Source: Bacteroidales bacterium CF | GTDB taxonomy: Bacteria; Bacteroidota; Bacteroidia; Bacteroidales; UBA932 | Direction of reading: 5' to 3' | Assembly (NCBI GenBank): GCA_000473305.1 | Contig: CP006772.1 | Location: forward strand, 744,001-808,000 | DNA: 64,000 nt | Shown: positions 12,463-26,292 of the stretch, piece by piece | Numbering within the stretch: position 1 is the stretch's first letter | Layout of the letters: each line of letters opens with the position of its first letter | Program-made: the position numbers and the translations under genes | The notes under the pieces: generated by a model | Databases searched by the model: none | Seen by the model: the letters and a program-made list of their open reading frames with translations, nothing else | What the model was told of the DNA's origin: nothing

Positions 12463-12491
12463 TTGCCGGATTATATTTTATTATACATTTG
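12463..12491 (+). promoter_or_regulatory. Promoter of the ilv operon
   Basis: TTG at 12463-12465 and TACATTTG at 12484-12491 are separated by 18 nt, matching the Bacteroidota -33/-7 pattern. Transcription should begin near 12498, about 28 nt before the leader-peptide start codon. Confidence 0.65.
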
Positions 12492-12525: not shown

Positions 12526-12663
12526 ATGAGTTTTTCAAAAAATAGTACAATAGCGGATCTTTCGATACTAAATCTAGTCCTATCGCTAGTCAGTGACATT
12601 CATTTTGTGATTGTCTCTGTCATTACTATTTCAGTCATTATTCTAGTCATTAGCACGGTATAG
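12526..12663 (+). CDS. ilv operon leader peptide (attenuator)
   Basis: This 45-codon frame runs from ATG at 12526 to TAG at 12661-12663 and contains 9 Ile, 8 Val and 6 Leu codons, 23 of 45. The densest part is the last 20 codons, including VIVSVITISVIILVI. Such bias is the hallmark of ribosome-mediated attenuation of branched-chain amino-acid operons. The frame lies between the ilv promoter and a rho-independent terminator, and ilvD follows 93 nt after its stop. A shortage of charged tRNA for any of the three amino acids would stall the ribosome inside this frame. It is too short and biased to be a typical protein, so a purely regulatory role is inferred. Confidence 0.85.
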   Translation: MSFSKNSTIADLSILNLVLSLVSDIHFVIVSVITISVIILVISTV

Positions 12664-12734
12664 GATCCTTTAAAGTAGAGAATTATAGTGAAAGCTTGCT
12701 TTAACAGGGTCCTGTAAAGCAAGCTTTTTTTTTG
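12662..12734 (+). terminator. ilv attenuator: terminator with competing antiterminator
   Basis: The terminator stem is AAGCTTGCTTTAACAGG (12692-12708) against CCTGTAAAGCAAGCTT (12711-12726), with one bulged A, followed by a run of nine T. A competing pairing exists: AGGATCCTTTAAAG at 12662-12675 can pair with CTTTAACAGGGTCCT at 12699-12713 (one G-U pair and one bulge), which destroys the terminator. The upstream strand overlaps the leader-peptide stop codon, so a ribosome finishing the leader would mask it and favour termination, while a stalled ribosome would leave it free. This is the classical attenuator geometry. Confidence 0.8.
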
Positions 12735-19190: not shown

Positions 19191-20198
19191 ATGGATTGGT
19201 CAAAACTTGCCTTCGGCTATATTAAGACAAATAAAATTATCTGTTCATGGTACAAGGATGGTGAATGGAGCCCGCTTTCTGCCGAAACAGATGACAATAT
19301 TAAAATAAGTGCACTTTCAGGTGCGCTCCATTATGGAATTGAAGCCTTTGAGGGGTTGAAAGCATTCAGGGGTGCAGATGGTAAGGTGAGGCTCTTCCGC
19401 CCTGATGAAAATGCAAAAAGGATGAGGCGTTCTGCTGATTTTCTGGGCATCGCCTCTCCCTCTGTCGAGATGTTTGTGGAGGCTTGTAAAAGGGCTGTAA
19501 TTGAAAATATTGATTTTCTTCCTCCTTATGAAAGCAGGGCCTCGATGTATCTGAGACCCTTTGTGATTGGGGTGGAACCGCAGATTGACCTTGTAAGTCC
19601 GAAGGAGGTACTCTTTGCTGTTGCAGCAATTCCTGTAGGTGCGTTTTCCGGTAAAAACCTGACTCCGGCAAGGATGCTCCTGGCGCGGGATCATGACAGG
19701 GCTGCCCCTATGGGTACAGGCAGCTACAAGATTGGGGGTAATTACGCTGCTTCCATGTTGGCCGGCACCAAGGCAAAGAAGGAGGGTTTTGCCTCAATTC
19801 TATATCTGGATTCGGCAGAGAGAAAGTATATCGATGAGTTTTCATCTTCCAATTTCTTTGGCATAAAAGGCAATTCCTATGTGACGCCTGACTCGGCATC
19901 AGTTCTTCCCTCCATCACAAATAAGTCGTTGATGCAGCTTGCCGAAGATATGGGTATGAAGGTGGAAAAACGAAGAGTTCCTGTGGAGGAGTTGAAAGAT
20001 TTTGATGAGGTTGGTGCCTGCGGGACAGCTGTTGTCATCACTCCTGTCTGGGAGATTGTAGACAAAACATTGGAAGTTACTTACAGGACCGGTGAGAAGG
20101 AAAGGACGGGAGCTGTAAGTGAGAGGCTGTACCGAAAACTTACCGGAATCCAGTACGGGGAAGAGCCTGACGAGCATAACTGGTGTTTGGAGCTCTAG
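19191..20198 (+). CDS. ilvE: Branched-chain amino-acid aminotransferase
   Basis: The 335-residue product is a class IV, fold-type IV PLP enzyme. The Schiff-base lysine is K190 in GSYKIGGNYAAS, and YIDEFSSSNFFGI carries the conserved Glu and the start of the phosphate site. The length and the motif YGIEAFEGLKAFR match the BCAT-II group. It performs the last step to isoleucine, valine and leucine with glutamate as donor. It is the last gene of the operon, 13 nt after ilvA. Its stop codon overlaps that of the convergent aroD gene by 4 nt, and no terminator is visible between them. Confidence 0.95.
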   Translation: MDWSKLAFGYIKTNKIICSWYKDGEWSPLSAETDDNIKISALSGALHYGIEAFEGLKAFRGADGKVRLFRPDENAKRMRRSADFLGIASPSVEMFVEACKRAVIENIDFLPPYESRASMYLRPFVIGVEPQIDLVSPKEVLFAVAAIPVGAFSGKNLTPARMLLARDHDRAAPMGTGSYKIGGNYAASMLAGTKAKKEGFASILYLDSAERKYIDEFSSSNFFGIKGNSYVTPDSASVLPSITNKSLMQLAEDMGMKVEKRRVPVEELKDFDEVGACGTAVVITPVWEIVDKTLEVTYRTGEKERTGAVSERLYRKLTGIQYGEEPDEHNWCLEL

Positions 20199-20821
20199 AT
20201 CCCGAGTATCTTTTTCATCTCAGCTTCACTATATTGCCCGGGTGCACTCTCTTGTGAGCCCGGAGCAATTACAAAAGTAAATGGTGCTCCCCTTTTCAGG
20301 GCTTCAATTCTGGTGACTCGGCCAAGCTCACCCATGCCAATTGAGAGAAGGGCTCTTCCCGGTCTGTAAAGAGAGATGAGTGTCGAATTGTCATTATCAC
20401 TGTTTGCCATAGTGGCAATCTTAACCAGGTCGGCACCCTCTGAAAGTGATCTTTCGATTATTCTCTCCAGATACTCTTTATCGGGGGTTGACTTGTAATT
20501 GTGATACGAGATAATGACCTTGCAATCATTTGCTTTGGCATATCTTACCAACTCCCTCATATACCCGTCATCAGATTCAATCTCTATATCAACCCACTCT
20601 GCCCCGCCGTCTATTGCAGCCTTTAGCAGGGCTTTCCTTGTCTTATCGGGGATATCGCCCGGACGGCATGTCGCAATTAGTGATTTGTGCTTCGCAAACA
20701 GAACCCTCACCTCATCGGAAGAGAGGTTGCTCATCTCGATTCTTATTTCGGCCATTTCGGCCCCTTCTATCAGTGACAGGATCTTTTCACTCCCCTCTAC
20801 GGCTATTGAACGGCAAAGCAT
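20195..20821 (-). CDS. aroD: 3-dehydroquinate dehydratase, type I
   Basis: The 208-residue product is a short type I dehydroquinase, a Schiff-base TIM barrel. EIRIEM carries the acidic pair after strand 2, the catalytic His is in IISYHNYKSTP (about 110), and the Schiff-base Lys is in LVKIATMANS (about 137). It removes water from 3-dehydroquinate in the shikimate pathway. It is smaller than the enterobacterial enzyme (about 250 residues), as is common in Bacteroidota. It is the last gene of the aromatic operon, 11 nt after the DAHP synthase gene, and meets ilvE tail to tail. Confidence 0.92.
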   Translation of the reverse strand: MLCRSIAVEGSEKILSLIEGAEMAEIRIEMSNLSSDEVRVLFAKHKSLIATCRPGDIPDKTRKALLKAAIDGGAEWVDIEIESDDGYMRELVRYAKANDCKVIISYHNYKSTPDKEYLERIIERSLSEGADLVKIATMANSDNDNSTLISLYRPGRALLSIGMGELGRVTRIEALKRGAPFTFVIAPGSQESAPGQYSEAEMKKILGI

Positions 20822-20832
20822 CTCTGAAGGAA

Positions 20833-21918
20833 TTAATTGTTCATTATAATTGTCTGTTTATTGATGGATTCCTGGTGTATGGCCTTGAATACATTGCTTA
20901 CAAACTCTTCGCTGAGGTCATTGGCCTTGCCCTTTTCCACCATCTTGTCCACGATATCCTTCCAACGCCCTGCCTGAAGTATTGTGATGTTGTTCTCCTT
21001 CTTGTAGCGGCCGATTGTTTCGGAAATAGACATCCTTTCGTGCAGGATCCTGATCAGCTTATCATCACAGATGTCGATTTTTTGTCTCAGCTCGTCGAGT
21101 GTAAGGAGGAAGAGAGGATTGCTGGTATTGACATCTCTCAGGATGAGCTTGTCGATTATTGCTGCAAGTTCGGCCGGAGTGACCTGCTGTTCGCTGTCGC
21201 TCTTTGCTATTGCCGGGTAACAGTGAGACTCGATCATCAGACCGTCGTAGTTCAGGTCCAGCGCTTTTTGAGATATCTCCTGAAGAAGCTCCTTCTTGCC
21301 ACCCATGTGGCTCGGATCACAAATCATTGGAATCTCGGGGATTCTCTGTTTTAGTTCAATCGGCAGCTGCCACTGAGGAATATTCCTATATCGGGTCTTG
21401 TCAAAGGTTGAAAACCCTCTGTGAATGGCTCCGACATGTCTGATTCCTGCCCCTTTGATCCTCTCGATAGCTCCGATCCAAAGGTTCAGGTCGGGATTGA
21501 CGGGATTTTTTACAAGTACTGGAATATCCACACCTCGGAGGGCATCTGCTATCTCCTGCATGGCAAAAGGGTTTGCAGTTGTCCGGGCACCTATCCAGAT
21601 AATATCCACGCCGTATCTCAATGCATCGTAGACATGTTTGACATTTCCGACCTCTGTGGATATCTTCATTCCTGTCTCTCTTTGTACTCTCCTCATCCAT
21701 TCAAGTCCAAGGCTGCCGACCCCTTCAAACTGATTGGGTCTGGTCCTCGGTTTCCATATTCCTGCACGGAATACCTCTACTCCGATACTCTTCAGTTGAA
21801 CAGCGGTATCCATTACCTGTTCTTCTGACTCTGCGCTGCACGGCCCGGCTATCATTACAGGCCTCTCCTGTTTGCTTAGTCCCCATCCTTCAAAAGGGGA
21901 GTTGTTAATTTTTTCCAT
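20833..21918 (-). CDS. Bifunctional DAHP synthase / chorismate mutase
   Basis: The product has 361 residues. The N-terminal 255 or so form a type I-beta DAHP synthase barrel, with MIAGPCSAES at the start, GIWKPRTRPNQFEG, and a metal-binding end MICDPSHMGGKKE. The C-terminal 90 residues are an AroQ-type helical chorismate mutase (LDELRQKIDICDDKLIRILH and ISETIGRYKKEN). The fusion order, synthase first and mutase last, is the one known from Bacteroidota such as Prevotella and Porphyromonas; the mutase part can mediate feedback. It starts the shikimate pathway and also makes prephenate, feeding TyrA and PheA encoded in the same operon. The gap to tyrA is 4 nt. Confidence 0.95.
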   Translation of the reverse strand: MEKINNSPFEGWGLSKQERPVMIAGPCSAESEEQVMDTAVQLKSIGVEVFRAGIWKPRTRPNQFEGVGSLGLEWMRRVQRETGMKISTEVGNVKHVYDALRYGVDIIWIGARTTANPFAMQEIADALRGVDIPVLVKNPVNPDLNLWIGAIERIKGAGIRHVGAIHRGFSTFDKTRYRNIPQWQLPIELKQRIPEIPMICDPSHMGGKKELLQEISQKALDLNYDGLMIESHCYPAIAKSDSEQQVTPAELAAIIDKLILRDVNTSNPLFLLTLDELRQKIDICDDKLIRILHERMSISETIGRYKKENNITILQAGRWKDIVDKMVEKGKANDLSEEFVSNVFKAIHQESINKQTIIMNN

Positions 21919-21922
21919 ATTC

Positions 21923-22765
21923 TTAATGCTTCAATACTGCCTTTATTCTATTAGATTCTTTAATCATATCCCTGATTTTATCACCTTCATCCTCTTTGAT
22001 CAATGTGCGGAACTTCTGAAGTTTCTCGATATAGGTCTCCAGAACGGTTACCACATTCTCTTTATTCTGATGAAAAATAGGTACCCACATATCAGGGGAG
22101 CTCTTTGCCAATCTTACAGTTGAATCAAAACCACCGCTTGCCAGGTCAAAAATATGCTTTTCATTCCTCTCCTTCTCCAGAACTGTCAGTGCCAGAGCGA
22201 ATGAGCTGATATGTGATATGTGTGAGATATATGCTGCGTGGACATCATGGTTTGTGCTGTTCATGTAGATGATCCTCATATTCAGCGTCTCATACATCCT
22301 TTTCACCTTCGCAACAGCCTTTATGTCAGACTCTTCTGTGTCGCACAAAATGGCGCTCTTTCCGTCAAAGAGTCCGGACATTGCTGCCCAGGGACCTGAA
22401 AACTCTGTTCCGGCCATAGGGTGGGAGGCAACATAACAACGTCTGTTCTTGTGGTATTTTATGATTTCACATATACTCCCTTTTGTTGAGCAGACATCTG
22501 TTACAACTTTCCCCTCAGCAAGGTCCAGCACTTTGGGAAGCAGTTTGACGGCTGAATCTGCGGGAACGGCTACTATTATCATTTCCGATCTGCTGATGCC
22601 CTCTTCAAGGGTACAGATCTCATCCACCAATCCAATCGTCAGTGCTCCGTTTGCATTTATCTTATCGTTATCGACTCCCAATATTGTATTGGCAAACCCT
22701 CTTTTTCTGAGGTCTATGGCGGCAGATCCACCTATCAGCCCCAATCCTATGATTGTTATGACCAT
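21923..22765 (-). CDS. tyrA: Prephenate dehydrogenase
   Basis: The 280-residue product has an N-terminal NAD fold with GLGLIGGS at 7-14, the catalytic-site block VASHPMAGTEFSGPWAA (about 114-130), and an all-helical dimerisation domain with YISHISHISSFALALT. It oxidises and decarboxylates prephenate to 4-hydroxyphenylpyruvate for tyrosine. No ACT domain is present. The gene lies 4 nt from the DAHP synthase/chorismate mutase gene downstream and 54 nt from the aminotransferase gene upstream. Confidence 0.92.
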   Translation of the reverse strand: MVITIIGLGLIGGSAAIDLRKRGFANTILGVDNDKINANGALTIGLVDEICTLEEGISRSEMIIVAVPADSAVKLLPKVLDLAEGKVVTDVCSTKGSICEIIKYHKNRRCYVASHPMAGTEFSGPWAAMSGLFDGKSAILCDTEESDIKAVAKVKRMYETLNMRIIYMNSTNHDVHAAYISHISHISSFALALTVLEKERNEKHIFDLASGGFDSTVRLAKSSPDMWVPIFHQNKENVVTVLETYIEKLQKFRTLIKEDEGDKIRDMIKESNRIKAVLKH

Positions 22766-22819: not shown

Positions 22820-23980
22820 TCACTCCTCACTTCCCCCAACCCTCTTTAACGCCTCAGAGAGTGTGGCTTCATTGCAGCAGAGTGAGATTCTTGCGAACCC
22901 CTCGCCGTTAGAGCCGAAAATATGCCCTGGTGTTATGAAGACATTGCTCTCATGCAGATATTTATCTGAAAACTCTACAGAGCTGCGCGTTGTGGAAGGG
23001 ATTTTCGCCCATACAAACATCCCTGTCTGATTTTTGTCATAACTTGAACCTGTTGCATCAAAAATCTTCCAAACAAGACTCCTTCTTCTTCTGTACTCTT
23101 CATTCAGGGAGCTGTACCACTCTTTGTCGCACGAGAGAGCCTTGACAGCCGCCAGTTGCAGAGGCCTGTACATCCCGCTGTCCATATTGCTTTTAACTTT
23201 AAGTATATAACTGATGAGAGTGCTCTCCCCGGCAACCATACCTACCCTGAACCCCGCCATATTGTGTGATTTGCTCATTGAGTTCAACTCCAGTACAATG
23301 CCTTTTGATCCCTCTATCTCCAGAATGCTTATAGGGTTGTCGTTCAGGATAAAGCTGTAGGGGTTGTCGTTGCAGATTAGAATCCCGTGTCGCCTGCCGA
23401 AATCGACAAGTTTGCGGTATAAGTCGTAACTGGCCGGCTCTCCTGTCGGCATGTTGGGGTAGTTGACCCACATAAGTTTGACACCTGAAAGATCTTGTTT
23501 TTCAAGTTCTTCGAAATCCGGTTCCCATCCATTCTCCTCCTTTAGGTTGTAATTTATTACTTCAGCCCCAACCATCAGTGAAACAGCTCTATATGTGGGG
23601 TACCCGGGGTCAGGGACCAGAACCTTATCGTTCGGATTGATGAAAGCCATTGATATATGCATGATACCCTCCTTGGATCCTATCAGTGGCAGTATCTCAT
23701 TTGCCGGATTAAGTTCAACCCTGTAGAATTTTCTGTACCAGGCAGAAAAAGCCTCTCTCAGTTCAGGTATCCCGGTATAACTCTGATAACCGTTTGTGCC
23801 ATATGTCCTGGCCGATTCTGTCATTGCCTCTATGGCATTCTCCGGAGCAGGCATGTCGGGATTACCTATTCCGAGGTTTATTACCTTTTTCCCGGCTCTG
23901 TTCATCTGCTCAATCTCTTTGAGTTTGACCGAAAAGTAGTATTCGTTGACCAATGTGGTCCGGGTTGCTGGAGTTATCAT
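22820..23980 (-). CDS. PLP-dependent aminotransferase, class I/II (aromatic/aspartate type)
   Basis: The 386-residue product is a fold-type I aminotransferase. NLGIGNPDMPAPENAIEAM opens the small domain, NYPNMPTGEPA carries the substrate-side Asn/Pro motif, the PLP lysine is in LNSMSKSHNMAGFRVG, and the C-terminal arginine region contains GEGFARISLC. Its position between pheA and tyrA suggests it transaminates phenylpyruvate and 4-hydroxyphenylpyruvate, or prephenate, though aspartate or diaminopimelate-type activity is possible by family. It is 6 nt downstream of pheA, so it is very likely co-transcribed and under the same attenuator. Confidence 0.85.
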   Translation of the reverse strand: MITPATRTTLVNEYYFSVKLKEIEQMNRAGKKVINLGIGNPDMPAPENAIEAMTESARTYGTNGYQSYTGIPELREAFSAWYRKFYRVELNPANEILPLIGSKEGIMHISMAFINPNDKVLVPDPGYPTYRAVSLMVGAEVINYNLKEENGWEPDFEELEKQDLSGVKLMWVNYPNMPTGEPASYDLYRKLVDFGRRHGILICNDNPYSFILNDNPISILEIEGSKGIVLELNSMSKSHNMAGFRVGMVAGESTLISYILKVKSNMDSGMYRPLQLAAVKALSCDKEWYSSLNEEYRRRRSLVWKIFDATGSSYDKNQTGMFVWAKIPSTTRSSVEFSDKYLHESNVFITPGHIFGSNGEGFARISLCCNEATLSEALKRVGGSEE

Positions 23981-23986
23981 GATTAT

Positions 23987-24844
23987 TTATATATTATGGA
24001 CGTTTTCCAATGACTCGATTGCGTGTGTGTATTCTCCAAGGATTTGGAAATCTACTATTTGCGGGCTTATCTCAAATATGCTCTGAAGATATTTCGTGTA
24101 GTTGTTGAATGTGACATCTACATAGAAGAAGTAACGGAACTCTTTGCCTAGTATCGGCATACTCTGGATTTTTGTCAGGTTCAGGTCGTTTTCTGCCAAT
24201 GTTCCAAGAACACCTGCAAGGCTCCCTTTTCTGTGAGGAAGGCTGAAGCAGAGAGATGCCTTTGTGGCCTCGCAGGAGTGCTCTACAACCTCATCCTGAT
24301 TTGCAAGGACAAGAAATCTTGTATAGTTGCGCTTATTTGTCTCAATCCCCTCAGCCAGAACCTCCAATCCATACATCTCGGCTGCAAGTTCACTGGCTAT
24401 GGCTCCATGTCCCTCGGATTTGTTAAGGTCTATCTCTCTTGCACTTACAGCTGTATCAGAAGATTCCACAAGTTTTATCCATGGATAATGCTTGAAGAAC
24501 TCCCTGCACTGGTTAATTGCCATAAAATGTGAGTGTACCTCTTTGATATCCTCGATCTTCTGCCCCGGAAGGGTCAACAGGTTTTGTTTGATTCTGAGAT
24601 ACTCCTCACCGATAATTTTAACCGGACTCTCCCTTAGGAGGACATAATTAGAAAGCAGGCTGCCGGCGACAGTATTCTCAATGGCCATTAGCCCGAAATC
24701 TATCTCCTTTTTTGCAAGCATCTCCGTAATCTCTTCAAATGTCTCACATTCAACAATCTCTATCGGTAAATCCCTGAAATACCTTTGGGCTGCTATCTCG
24801 TGGAAGGCTCCATGGATTCCCTGTATTGCAACTTTTTTCTGCAT
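23987..24844 (-). CDS. pheA: Prephenate dehydratase
   Basis: The 285-residue product has the two-lobed periplasmic-binding-like catalytic domain, with the start AIQGIHGAFHEIAAQRYF, GLMAIENTVAGSL and the catalytic TRF motif in NYTRFLVLANQ. A C-terminal ACT domain (GSLAGVLGTLAENDLNLTKI) binds phenylalanine for feedback control. It converts prephenate to phenylpyruvate. No chorismate mutase is fused, because that activity is supplied by the downstream DAHP synthase fusion. It is the first structural gene of the operon and follows the Phe/Tyr leader attenuator. Confidence 0.95.
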   Translation of the reverse strand: MQKKVAIQGIHGAFHEIAAQRYFRDLPIEIVECETFEEITEMLAKKEIDFGLMAIENTVAGSLLSNYVLLRESPVKIIGEEYLRIKQNLLTLPGQKIEDIKEVHSHFMAINQCREFFKHYPWIKLVESSDTAVSAREIDLNKSEGHGAIASELAAEMYGLEVLAEGIETNKRNYTRFLVLANQDEVVEHSCEATKASLCFSLPHRKGSLAGVLGTLAENDLNLTKIQSMPILGKEFRYFFYVDVTFNNYTKYLQSIFEISPQIVDFQILGEYTHAIESLENVHNI

Positions 24845-24855
24845 GGTATATAAAA

Positions 24856-24928
24856 CAAAAAACCCCGCTGAGCCAGCGGGGTCAATTAATATTGTAATCA
24901 GTCAGTTTACATCATATCAACCCCGCTT
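24856..24928 (-). terminator. Phe/Tyr attenuator: terminator with competing antiterminator
   Basis: On the minus strand the terminator stem is ACCCCGCTG, loop GCT, CAGCGGGGT (24882 down to 24862), followed by TTTTTTGTTTT and then the pheA start codon at 24844. Upstream, AAGCGGGGTT (24919-24928) inside the last leader codons can pair with the same ACCCCGCT arm and would prevent the terminator. A ribosome that reaches the leader stop at 24912 covers the antiterminator strand, whereas one stalled on the Phe/Tyr codons leaves it free. The pieces therefore fit the classical attenuation model. Confidence 0.85.
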
Positions 24929-24983
24929 TACTTCTAAAGAAATAAAAAAAGTAAAATGAGGTATATCCGAAAATGTTGTTCAC
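24912..24983 (-). CDS. Phe/Tyr leader peptide of the aromatic operon
   Basis: A 23-codon frame starts at GTG (24983) and ends at TGA (24912). It encodes MNNIFGYTSFYFFYFFRSKA followed by GLI: 6 Phe and 3 Tyr, with FYFFYFF as a solid block in codons 10-16. No in-frame ATG lies upstream before the inferred transcript start, and AGAGAGAAAG a few nt before the GTG may serve as the ribosome site. The peptide lies between a promoter and the attenuator hairpin and is followed by pheA, so it is almost certainly regulatory. The mixture of Phe and Tyr codons suits an operon that carries both branches. Confidence 0.85.
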   Translation of the reverse strand: MNNIFGYTSFYFFYFFRSKAGLI

Positions 24984-25009
24984 TGTTCTGTTGTCTATCT
25001 TTCTCTCTG

Positions 25010-25038
25010 CAAAGGTGAAAAAAAAACCGGAAAATCAA
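25010..25038 (-). promoter_or_regulatory. Promoter of the aromatic amino-acid operon
   Basis: On the minus strand TTG (25038-25036) and CACCTTTG (25017-25010) are separated by 18 nt, the same spacing as in the ilv promoter. The first base of the -7 box departs from the TAnnTTTG consensus. The start of transcription would fall near 25003, about 20 nt before the leader GTG. Confidence 0.55.
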
Positions 25039-25122
25039 ATAAAAAAACAAATATTTTTACAGAAATGTTCCGATTGCCCTTATTTACAACAATCTTGGCA
25101 AGTTATAATGTGTAAGCAAAAA

Positions 25123-26292
25123 TTACTCATTTTTGACAGACGAAAACATAAGACCACCCATCATGATTAAAGATGTGAGTACAACGACCTGTATCATTAA
25201 CGGATAATTTATCAGAGGTATTTGTTGGGCAACGGGTATTGAAAGTACAAGAAGTATTGTTATAAGTCCTCTTGGAGCGATAAACAGTAAAGGTCTCAAC
25301 GGTAGGGATGAGATCTTCAGCTGGGCGGCCCTGACAATGAATATCAGAGAGACAATGATTAGTGCCCAGCTAAGACTGTGGAGGTCGAGTATGTCGGAAC
25401 TCTTTATCAGATAGCCGAATAACATGAAAAAGAGAGCCCTGACAAGAAAGGAGATCTCTGAGACGAACTCCCTGAACTTGTGGATCTCCTTGTCCAGTAC
25501 CTCAGGTCTGAAGTGTCTTGTCCATTTATATTGACTCAATTTATCCATGTTACCCAGGAATAAACCGAAGATCATTATGAATATGAGCGATGGAAGTTTT
25601 AATTCATGAGTCGCTACATATACAAGCAGTATAACAAGTATTATTGGAATAAATCGTATATGATGGTCCACCTTGCTGAGGAAAAGGGATAGACCCACTG
25701 TCGTAACCAGAGATATTACAAACATTACCAGTATCTGCAACCCGAAATTGCCGAAGGCATTGAGGTCGATTACTGTATTTATCGTCATGAAGTTAAAAAA
25801 GAGGACACCTAGAATGTCAGAAAGACTGCTCTCGTAAACAACGGATTCCTTTACTGATTTCTCACATGATCTCACACTAGGGATGGCTATGGCGCTGCTA
25901 ATAACGCTGAAAGGTATAGAGTTAATCAGGGCTGTTCCAAATGGATACCCTTTAACCTTAAATAAAACGAAAGCGATGGCAAATGCCAGAGCAAACATTG
26001 AGACAAAAGCACCTATAAACGACTTCCGGACGATGGCAAGTTTTGATTTTCTGAGTTCCAGTTCCAAGGATCCTTCAAGTACAATAAGCACAAGACCGAT
26101 CGTGCCCAGACCCGGCAATATAGGAGTAAGGTCAGGGAGGGAGATCCCGGCCACCATGGTAATCTGCTTCACTCCCCATCCTAGAAGGAGAAGGAGTATG
26201 ACTGACGGAATCTTTGTCTTGGATGCTGAAAGGTCAAAGAGGTACGCTATCAGCAGGAGTGAGCAGACAGTAATTATTATTAAAGTAGACAT
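25123..26292 (-). CDS. Cation:proton antiporter (CPA family)
   Basis: This 389-residue protein has about 12 hydrophobic segments. Conserved features include LLLLGWGVKQI near residue 35, the SVISSAIAIPSVRS stretch (about 130-143), and RPLLFIAPRGLITILLV near the end, matching the Na+(K+)/H+ exchanger domain. No C-terminal TrkA or cyclic-nucleotide domain is present. It should exchange sodium or potassium for protons across the inner membrane; ion specificity cannot be told. The gene is 9 nt after the lipocalin gene on the same strand, and its end is about 85 nt from the promoter of the aromatic operon. Confidence 0.85.
   Translation of the reverse strand: MSTLIIITVCSLLLIAYLFDLSASKTKIPSVILLLLLGWGVKQITMVAGISLPDLTPILPGLGTIGLVLIVLEGSLELELRKSKLAIVRKSFIGAFVSMFALAFAIAFVLFKVKGYPFGTALINSIPFSVISSAIAIPSVRSCEKSVKESVVYESSLSDILGVLFFNFMTINTVIDLNAFGNFGLQILVMFVISLVTTVGLSLFLSKVDHHIRFIPIILVILLVYVATHELKLPSLIFIMIFGLFLGNMDKLSQYKWTRHFRPEVLDKEIHKFREFVSEISFLVRALFFMLFGYLIKSSDILDLHSLSWALIIVSLIFIVRAAQLKISSLPLRPLLFIAPRGLITILLVLSIPVAQQIPLINYPLMIQVVVLTSLIMMGGLMFSSVKNE

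Follow-up and report, generated by a model that had tools for sequence, protein, structure and literature searches.

What governs the expression of the pheA operon in Bacteroidales bacterium CF, and what role is played by the short frame rich in Phe and Tyr codons that precedes it? In the window (the whole stretch of 64,000 nucleotides that was analysed), five genes follow one another on the minus strand, with gaps of 6, 54, 4 and 11 nt:

23987-24844, minus strand: pheA, prephenate dehydratase (the best NCBIfam models are prephenate dehydratases, all under their curated cut-offs)
22820-23980, minus strand: class I aminotransferase (the models shown are all under the cut-off)
21923-22765, minus strand: tyrA, prephenate dehydrogenase (NF006307, 351 bits against a cut-off of 295)
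20833-21918, minus strand: aroG-CM, DAHP synthase fused to chorismate mutase (models for both domains, under the cut-off)
20195-20821, minus strand: aroD, type I 3-dehydroquinate dehydratase (TIGR01093, 120.6 bits against a cut-off of 139.3)

The region preceding pheA contains the following elements:

25010-25039, minus strand: candidate promoter of the Bacteroidota type, found by eye (TTTG at 25039-25036, 18 nt, CACCTTTG at 25017-25010)
24912-24983, minus strand: leader peptide frame VNNIFGYTSFYFFYFFRSKAGLI, with a GTG start, 23 codons plus TGA, 6 Phe and 3 Tyr
24920-24962, minus strand: 1:2 (protector) hairpin of the MFE fold, ACCUC-UUUUACUUUU (24962-24947) with AGAAGUAAAG-GGGGU (24935-24920)
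24918-24928, minus strand: predicted antiterminator strand (2) AAGCGGGGTTG, within leader codons 19-22, identified by its pairing energy against shuffles
24861-24883, minus strand: intrinsic terminator hairpin (3:4), a 10-bp stem followed by TTTTGTTTT (24860-24852), -17.5 kcal/mol

This arrangement is very probably a ribosome-mediated transcription attenuator of the leader-peptide type, with charged tRNA-Phe and tRNA-Tyr as the signals it senses. The hallmarks of such a device are readable in the sequence: a frame rich in codons for the products lies 5' of the operon, an intrinsic terminator intervenes, and an antiterminator excludes it. A first-pass annotation of this DNA had proposed a mixed Phe/Tyr attenuator in front of pheA, the aminotransferase, tyrA, aroG-CM and aroD, and the anatomy, conservation and covariation described below speak for it. 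The 23-codon frame that it reported (24983-24912, six Phe, three Tyr) agrees letter for letter, including the seven consecutive aromatic codons (FYFFYFF), and its F/Y score is reached by none of 100 dinucleotide shuffles (row L001). The terminator, previously placed at 24862-24882 with a T-run, is found again as the same hairpin, one base wider; 16 nt separate its stem from the pheA ATG (24844). The antiterminator, AAGCGGGGTTG, repeats the 3' arm of the terminator and is predicted to pair with the 5' arm at -18.0 kcal/mol, an energy equalled by 0 of 100 shuffles, which together with the covariation among relatives bears out the earlier claim that a strand in the last leader codons competes for the terminator arm. 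The leader as a whole folds with a z of -4.55, and none of 200 shuffles is equally stable. The MFE fold places the 1:2 hairpin (pairing z -3.17) between the F/Y codons and the antiterminator strand, overlapping the F/Y codons.

From these elements we infer translation of the leader, termination ahead of pheA, ribosome stalling and a response to Phe and Tyr. RNA polymerase would initiate shortly before the leader frame, which a ribosome would translate. With ample Phe-tRNA and Tyr-tRNA, the ribosome would reach the stop codon and mask the antiterminator strand (24928-24918), so that the terminator (24883-24861) could form and transcription would end ahead of pheA. When either Phe-tRNA or Tyr-tRNA is scarce, the ribosome would stall in FYFFYFF and disrupt the 1:2 hairpin; the freed antiterminator would then pair with the 5' arm of the terminator while the 3' arm is still to be made, allowing transcription of the whole pheA-aminotransferase-tyrA-aroG/CM-aroD operon.

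Conservation was assessed in the best 80 of 325 relatives from a scan of GTDB genomes with PheA, all labelled as Bacteroidota groups save L080 ('uncultured bacterium'); exclusion of L038, L045 and L091, which have less than 200 nt upstream, left 77 pheA loci. A short frame that outscores 99 or more of its 100 dinucleotide shuffles in F/Y richness lies upstream of pheA in 59 of the 77, while enrichment in H, I/L/V, W, T, R, S or K is found in 0-4. Under a simpler rule (at least six F/Y in 12 codons, plus a terminator), 68/77 loci have both frame and terminator, seven have no leader and two no terminator; two of the seven (L096 and L098) hold a weaker F/Y frame. The relatives thus retain both the hairpin and the F/Y-rich frame, the check proposed in the first-pass annotation, and the competing pairing is kept by covariation. 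Phe is present in 68 of the 68 runs, Tyr in 65 and Trp in 13. The run appears to be a genuine reading frame: in 69 loci, it averages 8.5 F/Y per 12 codons, the two remaining frames 2.8 each, and only 12% of its third codon positions are purines. The GTG start named in the first-pass annotation is present in the window and is a local detail, as 63 of the 68 frames from relatives offer an ATG no later than the run. In an even draw of the phylum, 24 of the 29 best-matching pheA loci (30 less L020) pass the F/Y shuffle test, on genomes partly shared with the 77. The same scan recovers E. coli pheL as a positive control (antiterminator z -4.3). The genes behind the leader also recur: among the 65 relatives' loci with at least 5 kb downstream of pheA, aroG follows in 59, the aminotransferase in 45, tyrA in 31 and aroD in 13.

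The competing pairing was examined in 92 rows (77 relatives, the window and 14 from the even draw, some contigs being duplicated), 83 of which possess both leader and terminator. The terminator arms vary widely (69 different arm triples, plus 'none' for four rows, among the 83), and since arms and loops are too variable for one alignment, a swap test was used instead of a covariance model. Across 53 rows with distinct terminator arms, pairing between a row's own antiterminator and its own terminator arm is stronger by 4.4 kcal/mol than the expectation for swapped partners, and 0 of 10000 permutations equal the own pairings. Once the energies are centred, 13 of the 53 antiterminators have their own arm as the single best partner, and for 27 it is within the best three. 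Taken locus by locus, the signal is less uniform: the antiterminator outdoes 99 or more of its 100 shuffles in only 43 of the 68, with a mean z of -3.1. The distance from the end of the last F/Y codon to the antiterminator strand has a median of 11 nt (10-90% range 9-16), close to the downstream edge of a ribosome, so that the strand would emerge just past a ribosome stalled in the run.

Folding models describe this switch with unequal success. At equilibrium, the mean terminator probability over 83 rows is 0.82 with the ribosome in the run, 0.99 with the ribosome at the stop codon and 0.98 without a ribosome. Values below 0.5, combined with more than 0.8 at the stop codon, are found for the mean over the run in 10/83 rows and for the best stall codon in 25/83; the window itself has a mean of 0.64 over the run and a lowest value of 0.38. 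Equilibrium folding was therefore discarded as proof of a switch, since the terminator is favoured in most rows even with a stalled ribosome, and for the same reason a working switch would have to be kinetic. In a co-transcriptional calculation (n=79), from which L051, L054, L058 and L084 (part of the 68, but with a script-picked frame over 80 nt away from the terminator) were skipped, the 5' arm is paired upstream with a value of 0.996 under stalling and of 0.29 once the ribosome has reached the stop codon. This model discriminates poorly, because shuffled sequences reach 0.79, with all 79 shuffled means above 0.5, and because in 17/79 the arm remains largely paired even after the ribosome has arrived at the stop. 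The 1:2 hairpin is not upheld as a general conserved part (mean z -0.95; 11 of 69 loci under z -2). The proposed switch would act kinetically and carry a protector hairpin in some lineages, the window's included.

The near-constant distance between the aromatic run and the antiterminator strand would also suit TnaC-like arrest of the ribosome by a nascent peptide in response to free Phe or Tyr, in place of starvation for charged tRNA. TnaC relies on a few fixed residues, whereas the order and number of F and Y vary among the loci while the enrichment persists, which suits codon starvation. Product-induced arrest would moreover act with the opposite sign for a biosynthetic operon, and this mechanism is considered very unlikely. 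Equally improbable is a leader that acts on translation, by reinitiation at pheA or by unfolding of the pheA start, with termination secondary. Reinitiation at short leader-gene distances is proposed in PMC4833913 (a paper that cites Lopatovskaya 2010), where the Bacteroidetes distances peak at 11-14 bp. In the window, by contrast, 67 nt separate the leader stop codon from the pheA ATG, with a strong terminator in between, and in the relatives the frame stop lies 5-80 nt from the terminator in 64/68 loci, at a median of 35.5 nt.

Still less credible is a metabolite riboswitch, a T-box or an RNA-binding protein that switches the terminator, with the F/Y frame incidental. The terminator and antiterminator would look alike in that case, yet Rfam lists no family at gathering score in the window, and the frame is itself the conserved signal, its residue changing with the operon. 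That the hairpin merely terminates the upstream gene (25123-26292, on the same strand), with pheA initiated downstream of it, hardly merits consideration, given that the hairpin lies 239 nt beyond that gene and behind a promoter-like site, that the relatives' terminator arms covary with their antiterminators, and that the F/Y frame accompanies the terminator in 68 of the 77.

For the tRNA-sensing attenuator, the promoter is the weakest part of the window's anatomy. The first-pass annotation had listed a promoter; by eye, the candidate box CACCTTTG shares seven of eight letters with TAnnTTTG, given as the -7 box of flavobacteria in PMC9723704, but a scripted search of the window for TTTG-N19-23-[T/C]AnnTTTG returned none and a sigma-70 scan gave nothing at this site. 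Of 69 loci, the window among them, 45 have a strict TAnnTTTG in the 60 nt that precede the leader, whereas mononucleotide shuffles predict 2.96; the copy in the window is one of the 24 that miss.

Comparison with known RNA families sets the element apart. At permissive E-values, Rfam gives 38 matches on the leader, all under their cut-offs and many lying over the terminator. L10_leader (27.1 of 44 bits), trpB (26.6 of 59) and Trp_leader (25.4 of 41) were rejected on that ground, and membership in Phe_leader (RF01859) was likewise rejected at 19.4 bits against a gathering cut-off of 55. Bacteroid-trp (RF01692) has no match over its 49-bit gathering cut-off in the window or in the organism's own genome. 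In ten pheA loci, the only Rfam family at gathering score is Flavo-1 (L100, 3052-3127), distant from pheA. The closest functional parallel, E. coli pheL-pheA (RF01859), shares a short leader rich in the product amino acid, with an antiterminator and a terminator before pheA. Its leader contains Phe and no Tyr, whereas the window leader mixes both and its operon makes both; in E. coli, tyrA-aroF lies beside pheA on the opposite strand, unlike in the operon studied here. A single leader also senses several products of its operon in E. coli ilvGMEDA and thrABC, where the amino acids and the phylum differ.

The first-pass annotation knew of no description of such a leader in this phylum, but the idea has been published. 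PMC9723704 reports "strong clues" that leader peptides attenuate amino-acid operons in Flavobacterium psychrophilum, as well as conserved 5' elements at pheA and hisG that other Flavobacteriaceae share and that have no Rfam match. Table 1 of PMC2864571 includes Bacteroid-trp (RF01692), from Bacteroidetes, as a candidate cis-regulator. The phylum-level idea has been in print in outline since 2021. The F. psychrophilum element, a structured 5' transcript at the same gene in the same phylum and without an Rfam match, is probably the same thing as the window attenuator; the section of PMC9723704 on it gives no codon content, competing strands or spread beyond Flavobacteriaceae. Bacteroid-trp and the trpB motif (RF04312) are also candidate cis-regulatory RNAs for amino-acid genes, associated with a different operon, and short frames reminiscent of leader peptides are mentioned for B. 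thetaiotaomicron in PMC7366714. The literature matches listed, a scope outside which most subscription papers fall, mention no further Phe/Tyr leader from Bacteroidota and no bench-tested leader-peptide attenuator from the phylum. The survey of Lopatovskaya (2010) is said to span several phyla and may hold an earlier prediction of a pheA leader. What is new here comprises the dual Phe/Tyr content, the wide spread, the formal covariation, the apparent horizontal travel and the tandem copies. Bacteroidota start translation without Shine-Dalgarno sequences. As the proposed switch needs a ribosome close behind RNA polymerase, it makes the coupling of transcription and translation directly testable in these bacteria, for which the pheA leader offers a concrete, compact target. 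A leader also predicts the amino acid sensed and can thereby help operon annotation.

Spread beyond the class Bacteroidia was explored in 20 genomes of other classes of the phylum, hand-picked for family diversity, with PheA 33-41% identical to that of the window. No F/Y leader before pheA passes in any of the 20, whose upstream regions are on the whole higher in G+C. Four further genomes labelled outside Bacteroidia, G112 (L200/L251), G231 (L211/L252), G164 (L249) and G254 (L250), encode PheA 44-50% identical to that of the window. All four have an F/Y leader, with a hairpin and T-run readable in the sequence; G112 and G231, both within the 29-locus draw, were those shuffle-tested. Downstream of pheA, G112 also has the aminotransferase, tyrA and aroG, and only aroG was found in the stretch of G231 examined. 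In a midpoint-rooted tree of 45 PheA sequences, with classes taken from labels only, 18 of the other-class rows (L247 and L248 of the 20 being absent) fall on one side of a branch with support 100/99. The four leader-bearing other-class sequences group among Bacteroidia, and the starred branches force at least three label changes. The simplest reading is that the pheA operon was apparently transferred together with its leader three or four times; this stays short of proof, because a gain and a loss can equally change a label, the rooting is at the midpoint and the classes are labels.

A broader reading, in which attenuation by leader peptides is the standing means of amino-acid control in the class Bacteroidia, with a separate leader for the Phe/Tyr, His, Ile/Leu/Val and Trp genes, the operon-bound Phe/Tyr module has moved with pheA to other classes and is sometimes present in tandem, and transcription and translation are closely coupled, seems rather more plausible than otherwise. 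The odds of this reading are slightly reduced by the fact that what the tree requires is changes of label rather than transfers as such. With the same scan, the upstream region is H-rich at 24 of 30 hisG loci, I/L/V-rich at 15 of 26 ilvD loci (29 less L117, with a short upstream region, and the gene fragments L130 and L138) and W-rich at 7 of 15 trpE loci; off-diagonal residue enrichment in these sets amounts to at most two per cell. The trpE set was limited to L170-L184 of 30 loci, since the rest score lower and look paralogous. The W-rich frames that pass the shuffle test before trpE-like genes are those of L174, L177, L178, L180, L181, L182 and L184; no Rfam family reaches gathering score in these seven loci, so that RF01692 misses them. 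The organism's own genome has no trpE match and is possibly that of a tryptophan auxotroph; trpE is found at some level in 44 of the 60 genomes searched, many of the matches being paralog-like.

Two further putative leaders belong to the organism itself:

about 2471307-2471394 of its contig C1 (locus L142), minus strand: His leader MSKRTNINALHHHHHHHRHHKWQVAFSV, with a GC-rich hairpin and T-run, then hisG
12526-12663 of the window, plus strand: candidate I/L/V leader MSFSKNSTIADLSILNLVLSLVSDIHFVIVSVITISVIILVISTV, ending in a stop codon, with a TACATTTG box at 12484 and a hairpin at about 12691-12727 with a T-run

Taken alone, the I/L/V leader is borderline, being matched by 2 of 100 shuffles, and the terminator scan of the window lists none before ilvD at its hairpin. 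It precedes ilvD-ilvB-ilvN-ilvC and two more genes, ilvA- and ilvE-like.

Tandem leader-terminator units precede pheA in 4 of the 74 loci scanned (L046, L051, L056 and L084); three further loci with two F/Y frames were judged not to be tandem. A tandem attenuator of another kind is known from the Salmonella mgtCBR operon (PMC3641672). Of the eight units in the four pheA loci, five have an antiterminator that no more than 2 of 200 shuffles can equal; the weakest of the eight is the upstream one of L046.
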